This document shows, in pieces, positions 28,710 to 33,275 of a stretch of DNA of 48,504 nt (position 1 is the first letter of the stretch; each line of letters opens with the position of its first letter). The stretch covers positions 1 to 48,504 of the forward strand of contig PXBH01000007.1 in NCBI GenBank assembly GCA_003565555.1, written 5' to 3'. This DNA is from Cryomorphaceae bacterium (GTDB taxonomy: Bacteria > Bacteroidota > Bacteroidia > Flavobacteriales_D > Cryomorphaceae). Below the pieces are notes generated by a model, which worked only from the letters and a program-made list of their open reading frames with translations, made no database searches and had not been told where the DNA came from. Position numbers and translations under genes: made by a program.

Positions 28710-30140
28710 CTACTGAATACTCAACTTTTTCTCCAGATCATCCAAATACTTTCGGAACTGTTTATCTGTCTCCTGAAGGTTGTTTACCGTACGGCAGGCG
28801 TGAAGCACCGTGGCGTGGTCTTTCCCTCCGCAGTGCATGCCGATATTGGCAAGGCTGCTTTTTGTCATCCGCTTTGCAAAGTACATGGCGATCTGACGCG
28901 CCTGCACCACTTCGCGTTTTCTGGTTTTTGACTTGAGCAGTTCGATGGGCAGGTCGAAGTAGTCGCAGACCACTTTCTGAATGTAATCGATGGAAACCTC
29001 CCGCGCCGTGTTTTTCACAAACTTGTCGATCATCTGCTTTGCGAGATCGAGCGTTACGGGCTTCTTGTTGAGCGATGAGTGTGCAATCAGCGAAATCAGT
29101 GCGCCTTCGAGCTCGCGGATGTTGCTGGTAACGCTGTAGGCGAGGTATTCGGTCACTTCTTTGGGCAGGTCAATGCCGTCTGCATACATTTTCTTCTCGA
29201 GGATGGCGATACGGGTTTCGAGTCCGGGCGTTTGCAAATCGGCCGAAAGACCCCATTTAAAGCGGGAGAGGAGGCGCTGCTCCATGCCCTGCATTTCTAC
29301 GGGGGCTTTGTCACTGGTCAATACGATCTGCTTGCCTGTCTGGTGCAAATGATTGAAGATGTGAAAGAACATGTCTTGCGTTTTCTCTTTTCCGGCGAGA
29401 AACTGCACATCATCAATAATGAGCACGTCCATCATTTGATAAAAGTGGCTGAAGTCGTTGACATTGTTGTTCTTCACCGCATCGATAAACTGGTGAATGA
29501 ACTTTTCTGACTCTACATAGAGCACCGTTTTATTCGGGAATCTGTTTTTGATTTCGATTCCGATGGCTTGGGCCAAATGGGTTTTGCCGAGACCTACGCC
29601 CCCGTATATCAACAGTGGGTTAAAAGCGGTTCCGCCGGGATTCTTTGCCACGGCAAAACCCGCTGATCTGGCCAGTCGGTTGCAGTCGCCCTCCACGAGG
29701 TTGTCGAAGGAATAATTCGGTTTTAGGTTGGAATCCACATTGATCTTCCGCAACCCGGGAATGATAAAGGGATTCTTAATTTGCTTTGTGCCTCCGATGT
29801 CCATGGGTGCGGATACCGGGGTGTTCTTGATCGCTCGCTTATTCGAGGTCGGGATTTTTACCGTGTAGGGATTGTTGCCGTTACGGCTGTTCTCCATGAC
29901 AATGCTGTATTCGAGCCTTCCGTCCTCGCCAAGTTCTTTACGAATGATCTTCTTCAAAAGATGGATGTAGTGCTCTTCAAGCCATTCGTAAAAAAATTGG
30001 GAAGGTACCTGAATCGTCAATACTTGGTTGTCGAGCTTGACGGGTTTGATGGGCTCAAACCAAGTCTTGAAGCCTTGCAGACTCACATTGTCCTTGATCA
30101 TGCCAAGGCAATTGCCCCACACTTCTTCATGTTTATTCAT
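28710..30140 (-). CDS. dnaA: Chromosomal replication initiator DnaA
   Basis: 476 aa, full length. Domain I (1-90, WFEPIKPV, FFYEWLEEHY), linker to about 140, AAA+ domain III with Walker A GGVGLGKT (180-187) and Walker B VLIIDDVQF (239-247), sensor and arginine-finger region QRLLSRFKWGL, and DNA-binding domain IV (VVQARQIAMYFAKRM, GGKDHATVLHA). Initiates replication by binding DnaA boxes and opening the origin. Flanked by repeats at its 3' end and by an AT-rich non-coding region at its 5' end that is a candidate origin. No dnaN or recF follows. Confidence 0.98.
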   Translation of the reverse strand: MNKHEEVWGNCLGMIKDNVSLQGFKTWFEPIKPVKLDNQVLTIQVPSQFFYEWLEEHYIHLLKKIIRKELGEDGRLEYSIVMENSRNGNNPYTVKIPTSNKRAIKNTPVSAPMDIGGTKQIKNPFIIPGLRKINVDSNLKPNYSFDNLVEGDCNRLARSAGFAVAKNPGGTAFNPLLIYGGVGLGKTHLAQAIGIEIKNRFPNKTVLYVESEKFIHQFIDAVKNNNVNDFSHFYQMMDVLIIDDVQFLAGKEKTQDMFFHIFNHLHQTGKQIVLTSDKAPVEMQGMEQRLLSRFKWGLSADLQTPGLETRIAILEKKMYADGIDLPKEVTEYLAYSVTSNIRELEGALISLIAHSSLNKKPVTLDLAKQMIDKFVKNTAREVSIDYIQKVVCDYFDLPIELLKSKTRKREVVQARQIAMYFAKRMTKSSLANIGMHCGGKDHATVLHACRTVNNLQETDKQFRKYLDDLEKKLSIQ

Positions 30141-30616
30141 TGTTCGATACGATGTAGTTTAGGTTAATAAAGCGTAAACTCGCTGAGGGCATGTTACCCA
30201 TGCATTCGTGCCCGATTGCTCCGACAAATATTTGGAGAAAAAAGTGAAAAAAAAAGCCCGTCGGGTATTGTCAGAATTAAAAGTTTTACAGGCGTGAATT
30301 TTTTCTGAAACCTCGGTTTCCCTAAGGTTTTTGGCATAATTTTATTTACGGAATCGGAAAAAGTAGGCACCAAATGATTTCTGTATTGAAATATAGTGTG
30401 AAGCGAACACAGAGAGCATTTTTTTGCGGTTTGCGGAGCAGAATCAAATGTAGACTAAGGTTAAGTTATTCACAATTTGCAGCCGAAAGCTTGCCCTGTG
30501 GTGGAAAAATTTCCTTCACCGAATCAGCTTTCGCTTTCAGGCAGCGCATGCGTGAATTGTATGATTTACCTGATTGCGCCGGCTGATTCTTGTCCGCACA
30601 GCGTATATTCGCGGGC
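30141..30616. other. AT-rich non-coding region upstream of dnaA, candidate oriC
   Basis: About 475 nt without a supported gene. It is visibly more AT-rich than its surroundings (for example 30238-30256 and 30331-30360). It holds one DnaA box matching TTATNCACA (TTATTCACA at 30466-30474), a partial one (TTTTCCACC, minus strand, 30496-30504), and a repeated GCGTGAATT (30292-30300, 30550-30558). One good box is weak evidence; the dnaA promoter must also lie here. Confidence 0.3.
30604..30611 (+). promoter_or_regulatory. -7 box TATATTCG upstream of thioesterase
   Basis: Seven of eight matches to TAnnTTTG, ending 5 nt before ATG 30617, again predicting a transcript with almost no leader. Confidence 0.4.
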
Positions 30617-31024
30617 ATGCATCATCACAGCACCACGTTTCGCGTACGGTACGCCGAGACCGACCGTATGGGCTACCTATACTACGGCAATTACGCAGCA
30701 TATTTCGAAGTGGGCCGCGTAGAGCTTTTGCGCAGCCTGGGGATTTCATACAGGGATTTGGAGGACAGCGGAATACTGCTGCCTGTGCGCGATTTTTCCG
30801 TGCGGTATATCAAGCCCGCCTATTATGACGAACGCCTGACTCTTGAAACTGCCGTGTCCGAACTGAGCAGTGCGCGCATCGTTTTTCAATACAAATTAAA
30901 AAATGACGCGGGCGATTTACTCACAACGGCAGCAACCACACTGGTTTTCGTTGATAGGGTATCCGGCAGACCGATATCCCCTCCGCCCGATGTAGCCGAA
31001 GCTCTGCACAATTTGACCAAATGA
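30617..31024 (+). CDS. Acyl-CoA thioesterase, YbgC/4-HBT hotdog family
   Basis: 135 aa from ATG 30617. An ATG-less extension to 30590 would pass through the promoter box. Hotdog-fold signature RVRYAETDRMGYLYYGNYAAYFE contains the catalytic Asp16 and the Y-x-N-Y motif; FEVGRVELLRSLG and FSVRYIKPAYYDERL follow. Hydrolyses acyl-CoA or acyl-ACP thioesters in the cytosol. The exact substrate is unclear; YbgC relatives act with Tol-Pal but no tol genes are here. Divergent from dnaA. Confidence 0.9.
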   Translation: MHHHSTTFRVRYAETDRMGYLYYGNYAAYFEVGRVELLRSLGISYRDLEDSGILLPVRDFSVRYIKPAYYDERLTLETAVSELSSARIVFQYKLKNDAGDLLTTAATTLVFVDRVSGRPISPPPDVAEALHNLTK

Positions 31025-31054
31025 ACAGATCGTAACTTCACTTCAGAAAAAAGG

Positions 31055-31100
31055 AATGTAAAGCAGGCTTTACATTTGTAAAGTTTTCTTTACATTTGTC
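31055..31100 (+). promoter_or_regulatory. Twin palindromic operator with embedded -7 boxes
   Basis: Two identical 18-bp palindromes TGTAAAG-N4-CTTTACA at 31057-31074 and 31077-31094, centres 20 bp apart (about two helical turns). The first extends to 9-bp arms (31055-31076). Each palindrome overlaps a perfect -7 box TACATTTG (31071-31078 and 31091-31098); the second box is 28 nt before ATG 31127. A bound repressor would occlude the promoter. The small XRE regulator at 31617-31817 is the obvious candidate ligand. Confidence 0.75.
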
Positions 31101-31126
31101 AAAACCCTTTCGTGATTTTGACAACC

Positions 31127-31627
31127 ATGATTCGCACTACGCTCTTTCCCGCTCGCCTCCGTCCGTTGGGTTGGGTGCTCTTGACGCTCGGACTCTCCGC
31201 AGCGACATGGCACGTATTTACAGGTTTTCAAGAGTGGGGGGTCTTGGAATTCACCGTTCCCAAGTTTCCATGGTCGAGCGATATCGGCAATTTATTATCC
31301 TCGCCGCCTGAAGACAGTTCTTTTGTAGGCACACGCAAGGAAAATTTCACCAATGAGGTCATTGCTCTTCTCATTTTGGTGGGCGCTGTCCTCGTGGCAT
31401 TCACCAAGGAACGGGTCGAAGATGAGTACCTCGTCCACCTTCGCCTCAGTGCTCTCGTTTGGGCCGTTTACGTAAATGCTGCCATCACTGCACTCGCAGT
31501 GCTCTTTCTTTACGGGTTCACCTTCCTGTACTTTATGATGTTCAATTTATTCGGATTGCTGCTTTTGTTTACAGCGAGGTACCGCTACCTTTTGCGGAAA
31601 ACGAAGATTGCCTCAGATGAGAAATAA
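31127..31627 (+). CDS. Four-TM membrane protein of unknown function, paired with XRE regulator
   Basis: 166 aa from ATG 31127; a GTG at 31112 is less likely. Four predicted membrane helices: about 13-33, 77-95 (VIALLILVGAVLVAF), 108-130 (LVWAVYVNAAITALAVLFLYG) and 131-150 (YFMMFNLFGLLLLFTA). The loop between the first two (about 35-75) is probably outside. The C-terminus is basic (RYRYLLRKTK) and likely cytosolic. Overlaps the regulator gene by 11 nt and sits behind the twin operator. No family recognised; the pairing of a small membrane protein with a 66-aa XRE regulator recurs in many bacteria. Confidence 0.75.
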   Translation: MIRTTLFPARLRPLGWVLLTLGLSAATWHVFTGFQEWGVLEFTVPKFPWSSDIGNLLSSPPEDSSFVGTRKENFTNEVIALLILVGAVLVAFTKERVEDEYLVHLRLSALVWAVYVNAAITALAVLFLYGFTFLYFMMFNLFGLLLLFTARYRYLLRKTKIASDEK

Positions 31628-31817
31628 GGTGCGGGATTTTCGTGTCCGCAAAAGTCTTACACAGCAGGACCTTGCAGCGTCTGTCGGGGTGAGTAGACAA
31701 AGCATTATCGCGATAGAAAGCGGAAAATATGTGCCGTCCACATTGCTTGCCCTGAAGTTGGCAGCGCGCTTGGACGCACCCGTTGAAACGCTTTTCCGAC
31801 TCGAAGCGGACGACTGA
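31617..31817 (+). CDS. Small XRE-family HTH transcriptional regulator
   Basis: 66 aa from ATG 31617, consisting of little more than one Cro/C1-type helix-turn-helix: LTQQDLAASVGVSRQSIIAIESG (14-36) with scaffold helices on either side and the usual PSTLLALKLAARLD. Family members of this size dimerise and bind short palindromes. Cotranscribed with the membrane protein (11-nt overlap), so the twin TGTAAAG-N4-CTTTACA operator upstream makes autoregulation likely (inference). No ligand domain, so the signal must come through the partner or another protein. Confidence 0.88.
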   Translation: MRNKVRDFRVRKSLTQQDLAASVGVSRQSIIAIESGKYVPSTLLALKLAARLDAPVETLFRLEADD

Positions 31818-31822
31818 AACCA

Positions 31823-31844
31823 TGCACGGGCTCTGTGTCGTGCA
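31823..31844. terminator. Weak hairpin between convergent genes
   Basis: TGCACG / CGTGCA with a 10-nt loop just after the XRE gene stop, followed on the plus strand by a pyrimidine-rich stretch rather than a clean T run. Possible weak terminator. Confidence 0.25.
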
Positions 31845-31871
31845 GTACCTTTCTCTTTCCGGAAAAATGAT

Positions 31872-33275
31872 TCACCCCATCAGCCGCCTGAGCCAACTGA
31901 GTTTCCATTTGCCGAAAGGCGGATACTTGATGCGCGGATCTGCCCACGTGGCAGACTTCAGGATGCTTTTGGCATGGCTGAATGCGGTAAAGCTGTGGCG
32001 GCCATGGTAATTTCCGCTGCCGCTTCCCTGAATCCCTCCGAAGGGCAGGTCGGGATTGGCCAGGTGAATGAGGGCATTGTTCACGCAGCCCCCGCCGAAC
32101 TCAATCTGTTCGGTGACGAGTTTTTCCGTGGCTTTATCGCCGGTGAAAACGTAGCAGGCGAGGGGGTACCGCATGTGTCGCGTAATTTCGAGAAGATCGC
32201 TGCGCTCATTCCATGTGAGCACCGGCCACACGGGCCCGAATATCTCCTCCCGCATCACGGGGCTGTCCAAGCTTTCAACTTCGATCAGGGTAGGAGCGAT
32301 GTATTTATCGGCGGCGTCGGTCTGCCCGCCGTAAATCAACTTTCCGTCGCCGATAAAAGCAGAAACCGTATTGAAGCGTTTGGCATTGATCATCCGTCCG
32401 TAGTCGGCTGATTTTTGGGGTTCTTTTCCGTAAAAGTCTTCGATACACTTTATGGCCTCGGTGAGAAATTTTTCTTTCACGGAAGTGTGCACCAGCAGGT
32501 AGTCCGGTGCCACGCAGGTTTGCCCCGCATTGGTGAATTTGGCAAATACCAACCGCCGCACGGCCACTTTCAGGTCGGCAGATGCGTCGACAATGCCGGG
32601 GCTCTTTCCGCCCAGCTCCAGGGTAGTCGGGGTCAGCTTTTCAGCGGCCTGCTTGGCTACCATGCTGCCCACAGCCGGACTGCCCGTGAAGAAAATATGG
32701 TTGAAATCATGGGCTTTCATCATAGCGGGAACCACCTCGTGACCGAGGCCCTGCACCACGCTGACGTAATCTTCGGCAAAGACGTCTTTGACCAGAGTTT
32801 CGATAACGGCTGCCGTGGCCGGCGCCTCCTCAGAGGGCTTGATCACTGCGCAATTGCCTGCTGCAATCGCGCCGACGAGCGGGGCAAAGGCAAGCTGAAA
32901 GGGATAATTCCAAGGCGCAATAATGAGTACCACGCCCTTCGGCTCATACATGATTTTGCTCGATGAGGGTTGAATGACCAGGGGGGTATCGCGTCGCTCG
33001 GGCTGCATCCAATCCTTCAGGTGGTGCAAGGTGTGCTTGATTTCCTCCTTGGTCACGGCGATCTCAGTGATGTAAGCCTCTGCTTCCGATTTGTGCAGGT
33101 CCTCGTATGCCGCCTTGATCACGGCGTCTTCATGTCGCTCAATTCCTTTCAGTAAGGCTTTGAGCTGCGCCGTTCTGAATCCGTAGGCACGGGTGTGGCC
33201 GCGGTCAAAAAATCGGCGCTTTGCGGAAAATTTCGCATCGGCCGCAGTCGCTTGAGAAGGGGTCATGGTTTCCAT
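31872..33275 (-). CDS. Aldehyde dehydrogenase (class 3-like)
   Basis: 467 aa. Oxidises aldehydes to acids with NAD(P). Cofactor site IIAPWNYPFQLAFAPLVGA (118-136) and FFTGSPAVG (195-203), general base Glu220 in ELGGKSP and nucleophile Cys254 in NAGQTCVAPDY, all intact. EEIFGPVWPV and the C-terminal PFGGIQGSGSGNYHG, FSHAKSIL and hydrophobic tail resemble ALDH3-type enzymes acting on fatty or aromatic aldehydes. Substrate not determined. Same strand as the acid phosphatase but 83 nt downstream; cotranscription uncertain. Confidence 0.93.
   Translation of the reverse strand: METMTPSQATAADAKFSAKRRFFDRGHTRAYGFRTAQLKALLKGIERHEDAVIKAAYEDLHKSEAEAYITEIAVTKEEIKHTLHHLKDWMQPERRDTPLVIQPSSSKIMYEPKGVVLIIAPWNYPFQLAFAPLVGAIAAGNCAVIKPSEEAPATAAVIETLVKDVFAEDYVSVVQGLGHEVVPAMMKAHDFNHIFFTGSPAVGSMVAKQAAEKLTPTTLELGGKSPGIVDASADLKVAVRRLVFAKFTNAGQTCVAPDYLLVHTSVKEKFLTEAIKCIEDFYGKEPQKSADYGRMINAKRFNTVSAFIGDGKLIYGGQTDAADKYIAPTLIEVESLDSPVMREEIFGPVWPVLTWNERSDLLEITRHMRYPLACYVFTGDKATEKLVTEQIEFGGGCVNNALIHLANPDLPFGGIQGSGSGNYHGRHSFTAFSHAKSILKSATWADPRIKYPPFGKWKLSWLRRLMG

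Follow-up and report, generated by a model that had tools for sequence, protein, structure and literature searches.

The window analyzed here, a 48,504-nucleotide stretch of DNA from a Cryomorphaceae bacterium, carries two small overlapping genes that are preceded by a pair of inverted repeats. The features of this unit are as follows.

31057 to 31074, no strand: operator 1, TGTAAAGCAGGCTTTACA (TGTAAAG-CAGG-CTTTACA), a perfect palindrome whose motif is kept 5′ of homologous gene pairs
31071 to 31078, plus strand: a second copy of TACATTTG, recognized by sequence at the junction of operators 1 and 2, a possible alternative −7 element
31077 to 31094, no strand: operator 2, TGTAAAGTTTTCTTTACA (TGTAAAG-TTTT-CTTTACA), a perfect palindrome at the twin spacing seen in relatives
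31091 to 31098, plus strand: the likely −7 element TACATTTG of the predicted promoter, in which the right arm of operator 2 is joined to TTTG, placed in the same way in relatives
31127 to 31627, plus strand: membrane protein of 166 amino acids with four predicted long helices, as judged from the open reading frame, family conservation and an AlphaFold2 model
31400 to 31456, plus strand: coding sequence of FTKERVEDEYLVHLRLSAL, a conserved stretch located between helices 2 and 3 that is predicted to be cytosolic and is a candidate docking site for the repressor
31617 to 31817, plus strand: CylR2-like XRE (HTH_3) regulator of 66 amino acids (HTH_3, E=2.4e-12; CylR2 1utx, E=1.7e-10)

The initial annotation of this DNA described two TGTAAAG-N4-CTTTACA palindromes with centers 20 bp apart, and indeed both are perfect 7-4-7 repeats with exactly this center-to-center distance. 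Only 0.07 palindrome matches with at most two mismatches are expected in the window, and two such matches arose in 1 of 100 shuffled versions. A genome scan, which had been proposed along with the annotation, identified operators 1 and 2 as the only sites with zero or one mismatch in the 3.7-Mb draft genome, and the broader pattern TGTMAARNNNNYTTKACA also fits these two sites only. By either measure, no target other than the operon itself was found in this genome. The gene upstream of operator 1 is co-directional and ends 32 bp 5′ of it. Within positions 28710 to 33275, the unit is flanked by a thioesterase-like gene on one side and a convergent aldehyde-dehydrogenase-like gene on the other, and a dnaA-like gene is located on the minus strand beyond the thioesterase-like gene.

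The annotation also reported a four-transmembrane protein overlapping a 66-amino-acid XRE regulator, which agrees with the four long helices of the modeled 166-residue protein and with an overlap of 11 bp between the two genes. Family alignment favors the ATG at position 31127 as the start codon of the membrane gene, with a GTG at 31112 as the alternative. In the AlphaFold2 model (mean pLDDT of 86), the helices span residues 9-32, 75-91, 100-127 and 131-165, and two short strands (residues 41-45 and 69-73) are present between helices 1 and 2. No relative of this protein was found by sequence in Pfam, NCBIfam or the PDB, searches of Pfam and NCBIfam with 29 family members together gave merely scattered weak matches, and a fold search of the PDB with the model gave no match at E≤0.001. 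Residues D99, E100 and R106 are invariant among the 29 family members, and helix 3 begins at residue 100 in the model. Both termini of the protein carry basic residues, which suggests that the N- and C-termini are inside and, therefore, that the three invariant residues face the cytosol.

The product of the second gene is an HTH domain alone, with no ligand domain attached, and its recognition helix is nearly constant among homologs. Among solved structures, the best matches are to a PbsX-family regulator (9k3w) and to CylR2 of Enterococcus faecalis, each over nearly the full length with E values of ~1e-10. In the matches to 1utx and 2xiu, residues 3-63 of the regulator are aligned to residues 4-64 of the chain. 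Similarity of the HTH to antitoxin HMMs is also detectable, but falls under the model cut-offs.

Members of the membrane protein family occur in 44 of the 395 genomes sampled from the phylum (30 of 171 genera). An HTH gene is located near 24 of the 29 family copies that were fetched, with the copy in the window left out of this count. Conversely, at least 71 of 80 loci fetched by HTH similarity, a set that is biased by this query, carry a homologous membrane ORF directly 5′ of the HTH gene. Most of these ORFs overlap the HTH gene by 4 or 11 bp. Tandem copies of the membrane gene are present in several genomes, and in two of these (G271 and G436) the copies lie within frames of ~300 codons; at loci L138 and L140, tandem copies in single frames of this size are followed by an HTH gene. 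Relatives from Algoriphagus and Aquiflexum carry a second paralog as the first gene of the operon. No copies of the pair were found on plasmids or phages.

A conserved neighboring gene that might point to function was sought, and only lineage synteny was found. In Pedobacter loci (including L038, L053 and L057), rimM-like and trmD-like genes flank the pair, with rpsP- and rplS-like genes close by, a setting that we recognize by eye from sequence as a ribosomal and tRNA-modification gene cluster. The sister species of the same genus (G001; L086:1191-2215) retains the twin operator and a membrane gene that is 77% identical, with ~250 bp of extra DNA containing hairpins between the two. Its HTH gene lacks the region for the recognition helix, due to either decay or an assembly fault. 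The persistence of the membrane gene and operators beside this degenerate regulator suggests that the regulator is not strictly needed.

A palindrome-constrained de novo motif search was conducted with 109 promoters of homologous membrane gene/regulator pairs. From two starting points, the search converged on TGTAAAG-TATA-CTTTACA with a log-likelihood of 777, compared to 98-311 for other starts. A run on reversed sequences merely recovered the mirror image and does not serve as an independent control. Sites scoring at least 14 bits are present in 88 of the 109 promoters, where 0.05 would be expected in shuffled sequences. The rest of the loci, used as a control, contained 23 sites in 505,183 positions. 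When five-fold cross-validation was applied, 88 of 109 held-out promoters and one control stretch carried a site, and a minority of homologous promoters carry none. Furthermore, a strong site occurs in 85 promoters, and in 54 of these it is accompanied by another at a distance of 20-22 bp, most often exactly 21 bp. Related sequences enter these counts separately, and the counts are thus not of independent events. The spacing is 20 bp in the window and in its family-level relative G005, whose site is likewise confined to its own operon. These results give a strongly positive answer to the check, proposed with the annotation, of whether operator and gene pair are conserved in relatives. Window shuffles, promoter-motif shuffles and cross-validation rule out a chance origin of the palindromes. 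An earlier palindrome scan without a motif model had yielded six perfect arms compared to 2.2 expected, a result slightly over chance that is superseded by the motif search. A search of the open-licence literature with both half-sites found no report pointing to this operator system, which does not prove that none exists.

The placement of the twin sites offers an explanation for their spacing. TTT(G) continues directly from the right arm of the downstream site in 39 of the 54 twin promoters and completes a TAnnTTTG-type −7 box; a box at the junction occurs in 7 of 54. For 33 of those 39 promoters, a TTG is found 20-21 bp 5′ of the −7-type box, at the −33 position. This TTG depends on a G in the right arm of the upstream site; that base is found in 38 of the 54 upstream sites and in just 4 of their 54 downstream counterparts. 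Since the downstream site contributes the TAnnTTTG sequence and the upstream site contributes the −33 TTG, the 20-22 bp spacing of the twin sites appears to be set by the promoter. The two operators overlie the two predicted promoter elements, and their separation matches the −33/−7 distance of Bacteroidota; promoters of this layout in B. thetaiotaomicron read TGTA-19 bp-TATCTTTG (PMC6193735).

The window conforms to this arrangement in part. Each copy of TACATTTG consists of the last four bases of a palindrome plus TTTG, and the claim in the initial annotation that each palindrome overlaps a perfect −7 box is correct insofar as both copies exist. However, normally only the promoter-proximal box serves as the −7 element in relatives, and for this reason the copy at positions 31091-31098 is the likelier real one. 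Unlike most relatives, the upstream palindrome of the window lacks the −33 TTG, and because of this absence the promoter is probably weak or slightly differently placed. Its exact location is uncertain, given this missing element and the spacing of 20 rather than 21 bp.

Exact operator sites are rare, occurring in 11 of 395 genomes, and a reversed control pattern is about equally rare. Outside the genome of the window, a CylR2-like gene is found beside 6 of 11 site loci. At two of these six loci (L102 and L104), this gene is paired with a second membrane family, which is present in 13 genomes and is followed by the regulator at a distance of 0-15 bp in 12 of them. A weight matrix trained solely on the first membrane family locates sites near 12 of the 13 second-family loci, often as two sites 36-43 bp apart, or about two periods. 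A third type of membrane gene (L106 and L107) is positioned 3′ of the regulator. Exact sites also occur in five Bacillaceae genomes, at one or two per genome. In the Bacillaceae loci that were fetched, the site lies 41-42 bp before a CylR2-like gene, and the site at L161 precedes one as well; at the sites examined, this gene is followed by yet other membrane proteins. Judging from these loci, the operator goes with the regulator and not with the first membrane family. One exact TGTAAAG-N4-CTTTACA sequence (L108:1501-1518) has no CylR2-like gene in its vicinity and was observed at the start of a Fur/PerR-like gene, after which comes a peroxiredoxin-like gene.

A DE-x4-[ILVM] segment marks the beginning of a membrane helix in most of the partner proteins, but is not present in its exact form in the L106 type. 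Models of both Bacteroidota families place the start of helix 3 at this segment. Only the motif region aligns when the profiles of these two families are compared one against one (E values of 0.0015 and 3.5e-4), which is too weak to claim homology. We propose that the segment is a docking site for the repressor, with weak statistical support from shuffled sequences (p of 0.03-0.07 per protein). A link to DUF6442 was considered and rejected, as it derived from a single weak match of a paralog (E=0.002) under the cut-off, with no match over the cut-off in 18 genomes of the family to which the Bacillaceae relative belongs.

We consider it fairly probable that a CylR1/CylR2-like, autorepressed module with a membrane partner is the best overall explanation for the unit in the window. 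The pair very probably forms a self-repressed membrane-sensing switch, in which the predicted autorepression is well supported by sequence and the sensor role is one that we infer. The 66-amino-acid protein would act as a dimeric repressor that binds TGTAAAG-N4-CTTTACA. Two dimers spaced by 20-21 bp, or two helical turns, would occupy the same face of the DNA, perhaps cooperatively, and would sit directly over the −33 and −7 elements, so that RNA polymerase is blocked at the operon that encodes them. The signal input would come from the co-translated membrane protein with its four helices: depending on an envelope or extracellular cue, its cytosolic EDE-x5-R-L segment would retain the repressor or let it go. 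The signal would then derepress the operon, and the additional membrane protein may itself be part of the response. Autorepression had been proposed in the initial annotation, and both components of the proposal gain support: the location of the operators over both promoter elements favors repression via polymerase blocking, and the confinement of the site to its own operon points to autoregulation. Sequence comparison directly shows that the operator is conserved, that it is tied to regulators of this type and that it overlies the promoter. Points that weigh against the proposed module are the lack of a detected target beyond the operon, the 20-bp spacing and missing −33 TTG in the window, the minority of homologous promoters with no site, and the degenerate regulator of G001 beside a retained membrane gene and operators. 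A sensor or antagonist role for the membrane protein is suggested by analogy to CylR1/CylR2 and to LytTR regulatory systems, and the conserved, probably cytosolic EDE-x5-R-L motif is helpful for this proposal.

Other explanations account for some of the same observations. Autorepression could be real while the membrane protein is no more than the effector under control, such as a protein of the envelope or one for self-protection, with the repressor sensing something else. The operon does appear to regulate itself alone, and SdpI of Bacillus is an immunity protein as well as a signal partner. However, the regulator has no ligand domain, and contact between the partners is suggested by the recurrence of a DE-x4-[ILVM]-like segment in the several different membrane families with which it is paired. 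We judge this explanation to be unlikely. It is less probable still that the regulator activates its own promoter while the membrane protein restrains it in the absence of a signal, as in the positive feedback of LytTR regulatory systems. Those systems match in architecture, with a small DNA-binding protein and a small non-enzymatic membrane protein encoded by an autoregulated operon (PMC6193735). In contrast to their direct repeats 5′ of the −35 element, the inverted repeats described here lie on the −33 and −7 elements, where a bound protein should block polymerase, and CylR2 is described as a repressor (PMC3709268).

We assign a very low probability to a toxin-antitoxin-like pair, in which a free membrane protein is harmful and is counteracted by the XRE protein, itself also the repressor of the operon. 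Two small overlapping genes with probable autorepression would fit such a system, as would the sub-threshold resemblance of the HTH to antitoxin models, which is expected for any HTH_3 protein. Against this stand the lack of plasmid or phage copies, the existence of tandem and double-copy membrane genes, and the case of G001, where the regulator is eroded and the membrane gene intact, a combination that would not be expected to survive if an antitoxin had been lost. Most improbable of all is that the palindromes are the site of another regulator that controls the pair, such as an FNR/Crp-like protein. Several protein families bind short TGT...ACA palindromes, but a global regulator would have many sites, whereas no genome has more than one or two copies of the exact motif, which accompanies the CylR2-like gene in two phyla and with different membrane partners.

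If the autorepressed module with a membrane partner is considered beyond the window, a class that spans phyla can be envisioned, although we advance it tentatively and hold it to be possible rather than probable. Its members would combine one CylR2-like HTH and one operator with interchangeable small partners that dock the HTH via the cytosolic DE-x4-[ILVM] helix start, and the 21-bp period of the Bacteroidota arrays would be dictated by −33/−7 spacing. Few routes from a membrane signal to genes that involve neither kinases nor anti-sigma factors have been described, and this small and widespread unit, if real, would be one such route. The operator would then aid in recognizing members of the module from DNA sequence, and harmless gut or soil bacteria would offer a setting in which to test how CylR1 communicates with CylR2. 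The operator arrangement recurs across dozens of Bacteroidota genera, and the coincidence of operators with both promoter elements would explain the 20-22 bp twin spacing.

Among known systems, SdpR/SdpI of Bacillus subtilis is similar in that an autorepressor is combined with a membrane partner proposed to sequester it. SdpR is an ArsR-type repressor, whereas no ArsR-family or SdpI match was found for the window pair in Pfam scans. LytTR regulatory systems such as HdrRM and BrsRM are likewise two-gene autoregulated operons for a DNA-binding protein and a non-enzymatic membrane partner, in which a LytTR domain acts through direct repeats upstream of the −35 element with positive feedback (PMC6193735). 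The window regulator instead matches only HTH_3, an XRE domain, with no match to LytTR, and its inverted repeats lie on the −33 and −7 elements.

The closest parallel is CylR1/CylR2 of E. faecalis, a described membrane-protein/repressor pair in which CylR2 acts as the repressor and induction requires CylR1 (PMC3709268). The suggestion in the initial annotation that the function of the pair is undescribed therefore needs to be qualified, as the type is partly known from this system; no description of it in the present form was found in the open-licence literature. The 66-amino-acid HTH protein is homologous to CylR2 over residues 3-63 (E=1.7e-10), the adjacent gene encodes a small multi-helix membrane protein with no enzymatic domain, whose homologs lie next to the regulator gene in most relatives, and inverted repeats lie over the predicted promoter, where the regulator would act as CylR2 does at its promoter (PMC3709268). 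In contrast to CylR1/CylR2, whose genes are divergent from a large target operon, the sole target found here is the pair itself, the genome contains no other site and the upstream gene is co-directional. Further differences are that the membrane gene comes first and overlaps the regulator gene, that the operators occur in tandem and that the membrane family has no name. Given the homology to CylR2 and the membrane partner on the one hand and the lack of a separate target on the other, the window pair is a CylR1/CylR2-like variant rather than a member.
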